A program made the position numbers and the translations under genes. Positions 37,309-43,570 of a stretch of 64,000 bases of DNA are shown piece by piece (within the stretch, counting starts at the first letter, position 1; the number at the start of each line of letters is the position of its first letter). The notes under the pieces were generated by a model. That model saw nothing but the letters and a program-made list of their open reading frames with translations, had not been told where the DNA came from and did not search any database. This DNA is from Pseudomonas sp. L5B5 (GTDB lineage: Bacteria; Pseudomonadota; Gammaproteobacteria; Pseudomonadales; Pseudomonadaceae). The stretch spans positions 2,666,001 to 2,730,000 of the forward strand of contig NZ_CP084742.1 of assembly GCF_020520285.1 (NCBI RefSeq), in the 5' to 3' direction.

Positions 37309-39588
37309 ATGGATTGGCTGGGTCTGCATTTCATTACCGAGCTTCCGGACAGCGGGCAAGTGGTCCTCCATTGCACCCACAATCCGGTTCTGGTGCTGCT
37401 GGCTTACCTGGTGGCCTGCGCCGCCAGCTTCGCTACCCTGGACATGGCCGAACGCGTCAGCCATGTCGAGCATCCGACCAGCCAGCGCCTGTGGCGCTGG
37501 TTCGGCGCCTGCTGCCTGGCCGGCGGCATCTGGTCCATGCACTTCATCGCCATGCTGGCGTTCGAGGCACCGCTGGAAATCCGGTACGACCTACCGCTGA
37601 CCCTGCTGTCGCTGTTCATCGCCCTGATCGCCGCCTGGCTGGCGATGAACACCCTGAGCCACCTGCAATTGCCACTCTGGCGCTATGGCCTGGCGTCGGT
37701 GTGGATCGGCCTGGGGATCAGCACCATGCATTACGTGGGCATGGCGGCCATGCGCTCCAGCGCGACCCTGTACTACGACCCCTGGCTCATGGGGCTGTCA
37801 CTGCTGGTGGCCATCGCCTGCAGCCTGGCGGCCCTGCTGCTGTCACGGCACCTGCGTGAAGGCAGCGGGATGTTCCATCAACTGCTCAAGTACACCAGCA
37901 GCCTGGTACTGGGCGGCGCCATCGTCCTCATGCATTTCACCGGCATGTGGTCCATGACCCTGGCCCTGCCCGCCGGGGCCCTGCCCATCTCGGTGGCGCC
38001 CGATGGCCACCTGCAACTGGCGCTGGCTGTCTGCGCGATCGTGCTGCTGGTCATCGGCAGTGGTATCAGCGCGGCCCTGGCGGACAAGAAGCTACAGCAC
38101 AAGGAGCGAGACCTGCGGCGGGTCAACGCCCTGCTCTCGCAGCTGGACCAGGCCCGGGCCTCCCTGCAGCACGTGGCCCACTACGATGCCCTGACCAACC
38201 TGATCAACCGACGCGGCTTCAACCAGATGTTCGCCGAAAAGCTGATGGAAAAGAGCACGTTCGGCGGCATGCTGGCGGTGATGTTCCTCGACATCGACCA
38301 TTTCAAGCGCATCAACGACAGCCTCGGCCACGATGCCGGCGATGAGCTGCTCAAGGTCATCGCCGGGCACATCAAGAGTTCCACCCGCAGCCACGAGGAC
38401 GTGGTGGCCCGCCTGGGCGGCGACGAGTTCTGCATCCTCATCAACCTGTACGAGCGCGAAGAGGCACGCAACATGGCCCAGCGCATCATGCAGAAGATGA
38501 AGCAGCCGATCGAACTGGGTGGACGGCGCATGGTGATGACCACCAGCATCGGCATCAGCCTCTATCCCGATGACGGCAAGACCTGCGAGGAACTGCTGAA
38601 GAACGCCGACCTGGCCCTCTACCAGTCCAAGGACTCGGGACGCAACAGCCTGCATTTCTTCAGTTCCAACCTCAAGACCCGGGCCACCCTGGAGCTGCAA
38701 CTGGAGGAAGAACTGCGCAATGCCCTGCGCGACGACCAGGGCTTGCTGCTGTACTACCAGCCGATCTATGACCTCAAGAGCGCCCGGGTCACCAAGCTCG
38801 AGGCCCTGGTGCGCTGGCAGCACCCACACCACGGCCTGCTGAGCCCGGAGCGCTTCATCAGCATTGCCGAAGCCAACGGCATGATCGCCGAGCTGGACAA
38901 CTGGGTGCTGCGCAAGGCCTGCCAGGACCTCGCCCATCTTTCACGCCATGGCCGTGGGGAACTGAAGATTGCGGTCAACTGTTCGGCACTGAACCTGACC
39001 CGCGAGGAACTGGCCGGGGAAATCGAGAGCGCCCTGCGCAGTGCCCAAGTGGCGCCCCAGCGACTTGAACTGGAAGTCACGGAAAACGCCCTGATGGGCA
39101 ACATCGCCAGCACCCTGGCGCTGCTCAAGCAGATTCGCGGCCTGGGGGTATCATTGTCGATCGACGACTTCGGCACCGGCTACTCCTCCCTGGCCTATCT
39201 CAAGCGCCTGCCTCTCAATACCCTGAAGATCGACCGTTCGTTCATCCAGGACATCCCCAAGTCGACCCAGGACATGGAGATCGTCCAGGCGATCATCGTC
39301 ATGGCCCATACCCTGCATTTGCAGGTGGTCACCGAAGGCGTCGAGACCCTGGAGCAGCAACAACTGCTGAAGCACTACGGCTGCGACTACCTGCAGGGCT
39401 ACCTGCTCAGCCGGCCAGTGCCACTGCATGAATTGCGCGAGGTGCTGGACGAACTCGACAGCCGCCATGCCGGCGACCTCACTCCCCGGTTGGCGGGTCC
39501 CGATAGAGATGAACCAGCGTCGCTGGATCTTTTTCCAGATAGCCTTGCCCACCATGCAGACGCATCAACTGCGCAGCTAACCCGCTGA
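37309..39588 (+). CDS. membrane c-di-GMP enzyme, MHYT-GGDEF-EAL (MucR-like)
   Basis: A 759-aa protein. The N-terminal seven-helix MHYT sensor has three copies of its motif: MHFIAM, MHYVGM and MHFTGM, thought to bind a metal and sense oxygen, CO or NO. A GGDEF domain follows (GGDEF intact near residues 370-374) and then an EAL domain (KLEALVRW near 497-504, with DDFGTGYSSLAYLKRLP). Both catalytic signatures are intact, so it may have dual activity. The inhibitory I-site RxxD reads SHED, so product inhibition is probably lost. P. aeruginosa MucR and NbdA share this architecture. The 3' end runs 110 bp over the convergent gene. Confidence 0.92.
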   Translation: MDWLGLHFITELPDSGQVVLHCTHNPVLVLLAYLVACAASFATLDMAERVSHVEHPTSQRLWRWFGACCLAGGIWSMHFIAMLAFEAPLEIRYDLPLTLLSLFIALIAAWLAMNTLSHLQLPLWRYGLASVWIGLGISTMHYVGMAAMRSSATLYYDPWLMGLSLLVAIACSLAALLLSRHLREGSGMFHQLLKYTSSLVLGGAIVLMHFTGMWSMTLALPAGALPISVAPDGHLQLALAVCAIVLLVIGSGISAALADKKLQHKERDLRRVNALLSQLDQARASLQHVAHYDALTNLINRRGFNQMFAEKLMEKSTFGGMLAVMFLDIDHFKRINDSLGHDAGDELLKVIAGHIKSSTRSHEDVVARLGGDEFCILINLYEREEARNMAQRIMQKMKQPIELGGRRMVMTTSIGISLYPDDGKTCEELLKNADLALYQSKDSGRNSLHFFSSNLKTRATLELQLEEELRNALRDDQGLLLYYQPIYDLKSARVTKLEALVRWQHPHHGLLSPERFISIAEANGMIAELDNWVLRKACQDLAHLSRHGRGELKIAVNCSALNLTREELAGEIESALRSAQVAPQRLELEVTENALMGNIASTLALLKQIRGLGVSLSIDDFGTGYSSLAYLKRLPLNTLKIDRSFIQDIPKSTQDMEIVQAIIVMAHTLHLQVVTEGVETLEQQQLLKHYGCDYLQGYLLSRPVPLHELREVLDELDSRHAGDLTPRLAGPDRDEPASLDLFPDSLAHHADASTAQLTR

Positions 39589-40375: not shown

Positions 40376-40573
40376 ATTGCCCTCATTTGATTAAAGATCA
40401 GTGAATACTGGCCGATTCATCTTGATTCAGGAAAGGACTCCCCCGAGCGTCGCTCAGAAAAAACCCTGACACCTTGGGTAAAATTCGCGCTCCACGCAGC
40501 AGCGAGGTCCCACTCCGTGATGGCTCGCCGACACCTCGTCCCCGAGCCAACCTGACCAGGCATATGGCGCACA
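40376..40573. promoter_or_regulatory. divergent promoter region before the tubulin-like gene
   Basis: 198 bp without a gene, between divergent starts. TTGGGTAAAATT-type AT-rich elements near 40475-40486 are the best candidate promoter sequence for the tubulin-like gene. No strong ribosome site is seen next to its first ATG. Confidence 0.3.
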
Positions 40574-42754
40574 ATGACTTCTAAAAATGATCCTGCCAAC
40601 GCAGTCTCCGAGATGACGCTGACCTCCTCCAAACCAAGCCACTCGGATACGAAGCCATTGTCCAGTTCACGCCCCCTGTCGACCCAGCAGTACCTGTACT
40701 TCACCGAAACCAATACCGACCGCATCCTCGATAACCTCGATGGCCTGCGTGACATGGTGTTCCCGCGCCCGGTGCATCTGGAAGACGAGCAGGAAAACCG
40801 CCGCGAGCAGGAGTTCCCGTCGGTATGCCTGATCGGCCTCGGCCGCTGCGGCTCCAACATCGCCCTGGACGTGGCGGAGCTGGTGTACAACGCGCGCAAG
40901 TTCTACCTCAACGAATTCAACAACGAAGACAAGGCCTACGAAGGCGCCTACAGCCCTGGCCAGTGGATTCGGCAGAATCTGCGCCTGGGCCAGAACAAGG
41001 CCAGCAAGCCCGTGTTCCTGGTGGAGCCGCTGGTGATGCTGGGCGACCTGGACAAGGACATCGCCGGGCGCATCCGCTTCTCGCGCAAGGGCGAAAAGAG
41101 CGGGTTCATCCGCGACTACAGCAAGATGAAGATCATGGACCTCTCGGAAGTCCACGCCGGTGGCGCCGGTAACGCGCCGATCCTCGGCCAGTACCTGGCC
41201 AAGATCATCCTCAACAAGGACACCCAGCGCTTCTCCAGCCCCGACTGGAAAATGATCCACTCGTACCTGATCGATTCCTGCGGGATCAAGGCCAACCAGT
41301 CGCGCCTGTACTTCTCGATCTTCAGCGCCGGCGGCGGTACCGGCTCGGGCATGGCCTCGGAATTCGGCCTGGCCCAGCAGTATTCGTACATGAACAAGAC
41401 CTTCGACACCAAGCCGATGGACGAGCACGACAGCAAGAGCGGGCACTCCTTCGTCTTCGAGCCGATCTTCACCAGCGGCATCTGCGTGCTGCCCAACATT
41501 TCCGACCACCGCAGCGAGATGTCCGAGGCGTTGCACATCAACGCCGGCCGCCTGCTGTGCAAATACCTGTCGGAAGAGTGGGACTTCTCCTACAACTTCG
41601 ATAACGAAGACAGCAGTGAAGCCAGCGTCATGGGCCGGATCCGCCCATGGAACGCAATGATGCTGATCTCCAACGACATCATGCGTTATGCCGAAGAAAG
41701 CGATGACGGCAACATCCAGAACATTGACGTCAACGCCATGGAGAAGCACGCCAACCAGTACATCTCCCAGCAGATCTTCAACATCCTCACGGCCCAGGCG
41801 GTGACCACCGACTACGACCAGAACTACTTCCGTCGTGCCGGCATCGACATCGGCGAAACCATCCGCCTGGACGCCAACGACCTGTTCATGAGCCTGGCCG
41901 GTCCCGTGGCGATCGCCTACGCCGAATCCGTGGTGCCGGAGCAGCCGGTGCCGACCGGCGACAAGTTCAAGGTGTTCGAGAAGGAGCCACAGCGCCTGAA
42001 CATCGACGACCTGTTCTTCCGCTCCATCGACCTGCCGCACTTCAACAAGCAGACCCAGGCCATCGAAGGGATCAGCCTGCTGCCAATCGAGTCCAAGCGC
42101 TATCGCGCGGCGCTGGAGCAGTACAAGGCCTCGGGGTTCGACGCCGCGGCACTGCACGACCTGCACTTCTTCAAGAACTGCTCGTCGGTGGTGTCCATCG
42201 TGTCGCTGCCCAAGGACTACAAGCTGTCCTACATGGACCTGAACCGGCTCAAGACCCACCTCAACAGCCTGTTCCCCAATACCACCCTCAAGCGTTATGC
42301 GCTGGTGATCGGCGCTTCGGCCAACCTGTCGCTGACCACCCTGATCGCCAAGAGCCCGTGCCTGTCGGATGACTTCCTGACCCTGATCGTGGCCTTCATC
42401 AAGCGCTGCTTCGCGCGCAATCCGTACCGTTTCGACGACACCCTGGACAACTCGGTGCTGGACTTCATCACCAGCGACCACTTCGACGAAAATCACATCG
42501 ACGATCTGCTCAACGAATTCGAGAACCCGGCGAAAATCCTCGACACCAACTGGTACGCGATCAAGCCGATGTACGAGAAGAAATACCGCGAGCTGATCAA
42601 CGACAAGGACAAGTTCGTCTCGATCAACGACATCCGCCTGTCCCGGGATTGCGTGAAGAAAGCCATCAAGTACCTGCGGGAAATCTACCGTCACCGCATC
42701 GGCAAGACCCGGGTCATCTCCCTCAATCAGCACACCGGCAAGACTGCCTACTGA
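40574..42754 (+). CDS. tubulin/FtsZ-superfamily GTPase-like protein, uncharacterised
   Basis: A 726-aa protein with the tubulin/FtsZ nucleotide-binding loops in order: T1 CLIGLGRCGSN (85-95), T3 HAGGAGNAPILG (194-205), T4 signature GGGTGSG (253-259), T5 region CVLPNISDHRSEMSEAL (304-320), T6 LISNDIM (364-370), and T7 RLDANDLFMSLAG (431-443), where the aspartates align with NxDFxD of FtsZ (asparagine replaced by arginine). The first 80 residues are Ser/Thr-rich and probably disordered; about 280 residues follow T7, much longer than FtsZ. It is monocistronic, with no FtsA-like partner nearby. Polymerisation and GTPase activity are inferred. Tubulin_2-like or FtsZ-like families are the nearest known ones. 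An ATG 13 codons downstream is an alternative start. Confidence 0.8.
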   Translation: MTSKNDPANAVSEMTLTSSKPSHSDTKPLSSSRPLSTQQYLYFTETNTDRILDNLDGLRDMVFPRPVHLEDEQENRREQEFPSVCLIGLGRCGSNIALDVAELVYNARKFYLNEFNNEDKAYEGAYSPGQWIRQNLRLGQNKASKPVFLVEPLVMLGDLDKDIAGRIRFSRKGEKSGFIRDYSKMKIMDLSEVHAGGAGNAPILGQYLAKIILNKDTQRFSSPDWKMIHSYLIDSCGIKANQSRLYFSIFSAGGGTGSGMASEFGLAQQYSYMNKTFDTKPMDEHDSKSGHSFVFEPIFTSGICVLPNISDHRSEMSEALHINAGRLLCKYLSEEWDFSYNFDNEDSSEASVMGRIRPWNAMMLISNDIMRYAEESDDGNIQNIDVNAMEKHANQYISQQIFNILTAQAVTTDYDQNYFRRAGIDIGETIRLDANDLFMSLAGPVAIAYAESVVPEQPVPTGDKFKVFEKEPQRLNIDDLFFRSIDLPHFNKQTQAIEGISLLPIESKRYRAALEQYKASGFDAAALHDLHFFKNCSSVVSIVSLPKDYKLSYMDLNRLKTHLNSLFPNTTLKRYALVIGASANLSLTTLIAKSPCLSDDFLTLIVAFIKRCFARNPYRFDDTLDNSVLDFITSDHFDENHIDDLLNEFENPAKILDTNWYAIKPMYEKKYRELINDKDKFVSINDIRLSRDCVKKAIKYLREIYRHRIGKTRVISLNQHTGKTAY

Positions 42755-43040: not shown

Positions 43041-43346
43041 TCAGCGCGATGCCCTTTCCTGGACCAGGATCCAGGGCGACACCACCACCGCCCATAACGT
43101 CGGATCACGCTCCTGCAGATCGGACGCCCGCGTTGCAGACAGCTTTTCAACGGTCCCCTCGGCCAGCCAGGCCGCCACTTTGTCCGCCTGGTTCTCGGCC
43201 ACGGCCTGGGCCGCTTCGATCAGATCCAGGTCGGCATCGACCCACAATAGGGCACCCTTGGCAAAGAACCGCTCCAGTTCCTTCCAGCTGATGGATGCGG
43301 TCTCGCCAAGCAGCTTGGCATAGAGGGTGCTAGGTTCTTGAGTCAT
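43041..43346 (-). CDS. DUF2288 family protein
   Basis: A 101-aa soluble acidic protein starting MTQEPSTLYAKLLGETASISWKELE, matching the DUF2288 family as I know it from pseudomonads and cyanobacteria. It is predicted to be alpha-helical, without cysteines or membrane segments. I chose ATG 43346; the extra 54 codons upstream run into the braC promoter region. The function is unknown. Confidence 0.82.
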   Translation of the reverse strand: MTQEPSTLYAKLLGETASISWKELERFFAKGALLWVDADLDLIEAAQAVAENQADKVAAWLAEGTVEKLSATRASDLQERDPTLWAVVVSPWILVQERASR

Positions 43347-43570
43347 GGGACTGTCCAGAAAAGAAATCGGCGCAATCATAACGTCGGTGCCCTGGCAGAA
43401 AAACCCGGTAGCAAAAGCGTCATCGATCGAGAAGCTCAGAAGCGCCAGGGATTGACGCCGAATCGCGCGAAAAACCACGCCGCAAATCTGTCTTTTTCTT
43501 TCAACCAAGCGACACTCCGCGTTTTTGCCCCCAGCAGCCAGCTTTTCAAGCGAACGACCGGCGCACTACA

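Follow-up and report, generated by a model that had tools for sequence, protein, structure and literature searches.

The locus and its product

The stretch of DNA considered here (the window) covers 64,000 nucleotides of Pseudomonas sp. L5B5, positions 2,666,001 to 2,730,000 of contig NZ_CP084742.1. An ATG-started open reading frame (ORF) of 726 aa, confirmed from the ORF list at 40574-42754 on the forward strand where the original prediction had put it, encodes a protein of the tubulin superfamily. That placement, also part of the prediction, is upheld by the order of the loop motifs, by Pfam matches lying below the curated cut-offs, by a profile comparison with FtsZ and by the tubulin-superfamily entries that a predicted model retrieves. 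The further suggestion of a new filament family does not survive, as the family is already known: FtsZl2 was described in 2010 by Makarova and Koonin with a Pseudomonas type protein, PFL_1302 of strain Pf-5 (PMC2875224). Neither the gene neighbours, which gave no clue, nor the C-terminal region, for which similarity to known domains was not found, pointed to a function in that survey (PMC2875224).

The window protein shares the features described for FtsZl2 (2010, PMC2875224): loops T1, T4, T6 and T7 and helix H7 with inserts between T1 and T4, an alpha/beta C-terminal region of about 300 aa with no coiled-coil, and sub-threshold similarity to PF00091. FtsZl2 was further described as a family of Proteobacteria with no conserved neighbours, and in the samples of Pseudomonadota searched here the contexts differ between lineages. 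Assigned by these described features, PFL_1302 itself being known here by description, the protein is taken to be a Pseudomonas member of FtsZl2, and nothing seen contradicts membership; new here are a predicted tubulin-type C-terminal domain and the predicted helices that follow it. The window protein is 98% identical to a protein of P. protegens FD6, and we take Pf-5 to be a strain of the same species (formerly P. fluorescens).

At E<=1e-3 a protein search with the window protein retrieved 666 relatives; among the 120 listed, identity is 77-94% and query coverage 94-100%. Two more searches with divergent members as queries retrieved 687 and 622, with 120 of each listed. Every source-given name among these 3 x 120 relatives is "hypothetical" or "uncharacterized", as had been anticipated, and scans of the window protein against NCBIfam and PADLOC gave no match. 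Literature searches found no experimental study of FtsZl2; in the passage of PMC7327170 that contains it, the string "FtsZl2" denotes the mutant FtsZ L272E and not this family.

Loop motifs and domain anatomy

Loops T1, T3, T4, T6 and T7 occur in the order of tubulin and FtsZ (Table 1), T7 lying around LDANDLFMSLAG (432-443), so that the order claimed for them is borne out by residue positions in the window protein and in the alignments. Conservation was scored in alignment A3, which consists of the window protein and 105 of 273 retrieved relatives (106 rows). Every T1, T3, T4 and T7 residue checked is invariant in 106/106 rows, including the T7 aspartates D433 and D436, which had been said to be kept; outside A3, one member of alignment A2 (P0011) has R at position 259 of T4. 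The most conserved segment is H7-T7-H8 (residues 385-445), with 42 of 61 columns invariant, as compared with 118/295 in the G-domain (81-375), 56/156 in the C-terminal domain (445-600) and 29/112 in the helical end (601-712). The 283 residues after T7 are a mixture of strands and helices and show no coiled-coil as judged from the model, in which the longest helix has 26 residues. About 80 N-terminal residues had been predicted to be disordered; the first 41 or so are variable, and between them and a variable linker lies a conserved helix at 42-64.

Table 1. Features of the FtsZl2 gene and its product, in window coordinates
Feature	Coordinates	Strand	Observation
Upstream region between divergent dehydrogenase gene and start codon	40376..40573	+	several conserved blocks in an alignment of 91 upstream regions, that of the window among them
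FtsZl2 coding sequence, 726 aa	40574..42754	+	ORF list; 666 relatives; median pN/pS 0.13 vs 75 Pseudomonas loci
Variable N-terminal tail, residues 1-41	40574..40696	+	0/41 columns invariant in A3; pLDDT about 26-33
Conserved N-terminal helix region, residues 42-64 (YFTE..ILxNLDxLR..VFP)	40697..40765	+	mean major-residue fraction 0.70; model helix 48-62
T1 loop GLGRCGSN, residues 88-95	40835..40858	+	G88, G90, G93, N95 invariant 106/106
T3 loop GGAGNAPILG, residues 196-205	41159..41188	+	profile-aligned to FtsZ GAGANPEVG; G196, G197, G199, N200, G205 invariant 106/106
T4 signature GGGTGSG, residues 253-259	41330..41350	+	all seven residues invariant 106/106 in A3
T6 ISND, residues 365-368	41666..41677	+	N367 in 105/106, D368 in 106/106
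H7 core helix, residues 385-410	41726..41803	+	N394 invariant 106/106; model helix 386-409
T7 loop RLDANDLFM, residues 431-439	41864..41890	+	R431, D433, N435, D436 invariant 106/106
C-terminal (activation) domain, residues 445-600	41906..42373	+	
C-terminal helical region, residues 601-712	42374..42709	+	tubulin matches extend over it, by first and last aligned residues

Similarity to tubulin and FtsZ in sequence and predicted structure

In Pfam, the window protein matches Tubulin (PF00091) with E 0.0028 and 18.4 bits against a cut-off of 33, and Tubulin_2 (PF13809) with E 0.018 and 14.7 bits against 27. Over alignment A2, PF00091 is matched by 43/43 members and Tubulin_2 by 41/43, all below the curated cut-offs, with best E values of 3.1e-5 and 0.0012, respectively. 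The sole relative in the three 120-row lists with a precomputed Pfam label (PF13809), P0229, scored 18.8 bits against the cut-off of 27 when rescanned here. When its profile is compared with that of 26 FtsZ sequences, the two align at T3-T4 with a score of 28.4, which none of 60 column shuffles reached (shuffle mean 14.9, sd 2.5). An earlier comparison, in which eight unrelated neighbour families served as controls, ranked FtsZ first of the nine, at 30.5. A search of 150 genomes of the phylum with PF13809 gave no match, and hence no Tubulin_2 alignment for such a comparison. PDB sequence searches with A2 and A3 gave chance matches to ribosomal protein L23 only (E 0.24 or worse), and PHROGs a single chance match (E 0.4). 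Judged from sequence, the motif set is more than chance.

The AlphaFold model has a mean predicted local distance difference test score (pLDDT) of 52.8 and a predicted template modelling score (pTM) of 0.44, and is usable only after T6; an initial model built from the 23 close relatives of A1 had a pLDDT of 30.5 and was meaningless. The Foldseek check proposed with the original prediction, run on this model, returned tubulin-superfamily entries in all 50 PDB rows listed, TubZ chains being the first matches. H7 and the C-terminal domain superpose on FtsZ at 2.5 A over 129 residues (VIA-align), the match to the FtsZ chain beginning at model residue 390 and FtsZ residue 181, within H7. Because the model after T6 retrieves tubulin-superfamily entries, the C-terminal region of FtsZl2 is read as most likely a tubulin-type C-terminal domain followed by helices; a tubulin-type fold is thus predicted for the second half of the protein only. 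Since VIA-align reports just the ends of the aligned range, which helices correspond to the C-terminal helices of tubulin is what we infer, and chain identity in multi-protein PDB entries was taken from the titles. The viral structure library held no match at E<=0.001, a phage "cell division protein" ranking first at E 6.8e-3.

Beyond FtsZl2 itself, the closest known systems are FtsZl1, FtsZ, alpha-, beta- and gamma-tubulin, BtubA, CetZ and TubZ. With FtsZ the protein shares H7 and the C-terminal domain fold (in the predicted model), the T3-T4 sequence match and the T7 aspartates. It differs in length, 726 aa as against 397 aa for the FtsZ of the same genome, and in ending in helices, whereas FtsZ has a disordered tail that carries the FtsA/ZipA-binding peptide. 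Furthermore, the PF00091 score of the window protein lies under the cut-off, and the one PF00091 match at E<=0.001 in the genome lies elsewhere, in FtsZ. With FtsZl1 (Tubulin_2, PF13809) it shares the GGGTGSG loop, and Tubulin_2 aligns from T1 onward, below threshold, in P0229, P0230 and P0232. Unlike FtsZl1, the window protein is without a coiled-coil, and no vWA, kinase, OmpA or GTPase neighbours were seen. FtsZl1 also lacks a recognisable T6-H7 (PMC2875224), whereas T6-T7 of the window protein is intact. Membership in FtsZl1 was rejected on the low PF13809 score and on the lack of vWA, kinase or OmpA genes among the neighbours seen.

Distribution, selection and dispensability

FtsZl2 is patchy in Gammaproteobacteria and single-copy where intact. 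Among relatives of the source genome, 28 of 57 genomes have a match, comprising 27/36 of the same genus (own genome counted) and 1/21 others; the class sample gave 2/369, own genome included, and the phylum sample, searched by profile, 9/398, including the own genome and a decayed copy in genome G787. The order to which G787 belongs gave 31/394, in 12 of 115 genera and including decayed copies in G787 and G913. That in G787 (L147) consists of fragments with internal stops between apparent sucD and pfkA genes, and that in G913 (G913:C55) of small fragments only. Matched genomes of the Pseudomonadota samples all fall in the class of the window, and those with an intact copy had one match each. 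Patterns made from the window protein found 565 stretches encoding a relative among GTDB contigs, the best 80 of the 565 all being from Pseudomonas; relatives also occur in Rheinheimera, Arsukibacterium, Cellvibrio, Psychromonas and others, so that the family reaches beyond the pseudomonads, for which a filament had been proposed. One FtsZl2 protein, P0197, is labelled Flavobacterium by its source and sits in sequence among the Rheinheimera/Cellvibrio types; the record is possibly mislabelled.

A DNA-partitioning filament of the TubZ/PhuZ type, the reading to which the TubZ chains at the head of the Foldseek matches would point, is scarcely probable, the least so of the alternatives weighed here. 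Such filaments are carried by plasmids and phages, and the window lies in a one-contig genome of 6.8 Mb. Searches of 72,556 plasmid records, 50,697 phage records and viral contigs gave no match, records very near the source genome possibly being excluded from these sets; a plasmid or phage origin was rejected on this result.

Where present, FtsZl2 is under strong purifying selection, with a median ratio of nonsynonymous to synonymous polymorphism (pN/pS) of 0.132 against 75 Pseudomonas loci, as compared with 0.061-0.149 for livKHMGF, 0.114 for a major facilitator superfamily (MFS) gene, 0.182 for the dehydrogenase and 0.325 for the GGDEF-EAL gene. The latter encodes an MHYT-GGDEF-EAL membrane signalling protein (window 37309-39588), two genes upstream of FtsZl2, and at 0.33 its pN/pS exceeds that of the other eight genes in the comparison. 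Pairwise identity is at least 53% within a set of 25 sequences. FtsZl2 is dispensable, because it is absent from healthy relatives. Its patchy occurrence, its presence or absence as one gene and its lineage-specific neighbourhoods would suit an anti-phage defence consisting of one gene, or another kind of mobile accessory factor, but slow, uniform evolution of this kind is unlike that of arms-race genes, and neither PADLOC nor the plasmid, phage and viral-contig sets matched the protein, which leaves such a role very improbable.

Genomic context, gain and loss

Most named Pseudomonas loci have the order MHYT-GGDEF-EAL, often a dehydrogenase gene (-), FtsZl2, DUF2288 (-) and livKHM. Elsewhere the neighbours, by Pfam, are Amt-GGDEF-EAL, GGDEF, methyl-accepting chemotaxis protein (MCP), selA, acyl-CoA dehydrogenase, CAAX protease, nucleoside transporter and other genes and, as read from first residues, ppx/rho, sucCD/pfkA, topA, glyceraldehyde-3-phosphate dehydrogenase and electron-transfer flavoprotein dehydrogenase genes. 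Pfam assigned a family to 18 of the 25 neighbour genes scanned at related loci and was also run on four window genes, the other neighbour names being read from first residues; ORFs were called mechanically, sometimes on the wrong strand at GC-rich loci (for instance L106), and L192 was covered in part. Neighbours resembling FtsA or ZipA, which had been stated to be lacking, were not seen at the loci viewed. The DUF2288 gene of the window (43041-43508, minus strand; PF10052 at residues 62-151) is listed as an ORF of 155 aa, and its true start is suggested to be about 50 residues further in, because several relatives have stop codons upstream of the domain.

FtsZl2 is present or absent as a single-gene unit, and no conserved partner gene occurs in the loci viewed. 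A search of 13 Pseudomonas without a detected FtsZl2 found the DUF2288 gene in all 13, in 13/13 adjoining livKHM, and at three such loci (L220, L221 and L222) DUF2288 comes after the EAL gene, the two matches lying 84-422 bases apart. In a comparison of L221 with L064, homology is lost close to where the EAL gene ends and picks up again about 15 bases past the stop codon of FtsZl2, about 160 bases in between being unmatched; the unit gained or lost is therefore the FtsZl2 gene with its own upstream region. At its 3' end that region holds an upstream ORF of six codons (ATG GCG CAC AAT GAC TTC TAA, window 40564-40584) that overlaps the FtsZl2 start codon, and the main ATG is preceded by no clear Shine-Dalgarno sequence. 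Of 100 Pseudomonas loci, 92 retain the upstream ATG at -10 and 60 have all six codons unchanged, and in several other lineages a purine-rich stretch precedes the start instead. Translational coupling via the upstream ORF is possible.

In a tree of 62 rows, f204, of the order Pseudomonadales, falls inside f222 of another order (support 100/99), Atopomonas, a member of the Pseudomonadaceae, groups with two f286 rows (100/99). A metagenome-assembled genome (MAG) of Cellvibrionales, L102, lies far from Cellvibrio. These placements fit horizontal transfer. Against transfer, the branches starred by the tree tool leave a single origin possible for the Pseudomonadaceae and Cellvibrio groups, and several rows have long branches, some being MAGs, so that single placements are unsure.

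The neighbours also bear on whether FtsZl2 might form a filament that is linked to signalling by cyclic-di-GMP or in chemotaxis, as in a switch between surface-bound and motile life. GGDEF genes lie within 2.5 kb of FtsZl2 in 8 of 40 loci (four in the same Pseudomonas slot, together with L144, L146, L185 and L199), that is, 8 per 195,313 near bases as opposed to 1 per 392,026 bases further out, and MCP genes adjoin FtsZl2 in L197, L199 and L204, with none further out. GGDEF is common, however, with 1114 matches in 26 genomes or about 10.5 per Mb, the MCP class was added only after being seen, and in 25 loci fetched after the idea arose GGDEF lay within 2.5 kb in two, where about 1.3 were expected. 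Because this later set shows no excess, a GGDEF association is kept as a lead and is not claimed, and a dedicated cyclic-di-GMP partner was rejected; a signalling filament of this kind is improbable.

A probable chromosomal filament beside FtsZ

We consider it probable, with some reserve, that FtsZl2 is encoded on the chromosome, is dispensable, forms filaments driven by GTP and has no dedicated partner genes, its GTP binding, polymerisation and cellular role being the parts that we infer. Loops T1-T6 would bind GTP, and D433 and D436 of T7 would extend into the pocket of the adjoining subunit and set off hydrolysis there, so that T7-activated hydrolysis in the neighbouring subunit would yield a dynamic head-to-tail filament. 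More tentatively, the conserved C-terminal helices, rather than a tail peptide of the FtsZ type, may contact a house-keeping component of the cell, and the gene might therefore work alone after transfer. The filament would serve a conditional, non-essential task in organising the cell; a role in septation is unlikely, because the same genome encodes canonical FtsZ.

Several observations weigh against a GTP-driven filament. R431 occupies the position of the T7 asparagine of E. coli FtsZ, so that the active site is not identical to that of FtsZ, and we know of no experiment showing GTPase activity or polymers for FtsZl2. In the comparison with neighbour families the GGDEF-EAL control scored 28.2, near the 30.5 of FtsZ, which makes the sequence evidence modest by itself. 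The FtsZ profile comparison was at shuffle level for residues 440-600, where 34 of 60 shuffles reached the score, and for 440-726 (56/60), the 345-600 piece beat 60 shuffles (23.6 vs 15.4 +/- 2.5) but aligned out of register, and a PDB sequence search with the window protein gave no match. Most of the GTPase half (residues about 67-317) has pLDDT <50, and because that half did not model, the nucleotide pocket, which the GGGTGSG loop would line, is read from the motifs only. The Foldseek TM-scores among the rows listed are 0.11-0.36, and with the low mean pLDDT and pTM this makes the fold match weak in absolute terms.

Alternatively, FtsZl2 could be a GTP-binding protein of tubulin fold that does not polymerise but works as a switch, or modulates FtsZ or another filament, an account that is unlikely. 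FtsZ is encoded in the same genome, the long inserts of the GTPase half and the extra C-terminal helices could block stacking, and R431 stands where FtsZ has asparagine. However, conservation is highest in the H7-T7-H8 segment with both T7 aspartates, which would be needless in a non-polymerising switch. A bolder form of the filament reading, which we also hold unlikely, would make FtsZl2 a bacterial tubulin sufficient in itself, forming a chromosomally encoded filament whose tubulin-like C-terminal helices face outwards, assembling with no adaptor genes of its own, moving between Gammaproteobacteria as a one-gene module and organising an undescribed cell structure.

Sixteen years after the family was first published, the tubulin-type part predicted at the C terminus would explain the region left unplaced in 2010 and would sharpen the prediction that FtsZl2 polymerises. 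Several Pseudomonas that carry the gene are genetically tractable, and the presence of FtsZl2 beside canonical FtsZ in one genome lets the role of an extra chromosomal tubulin in a bacterium be asked.
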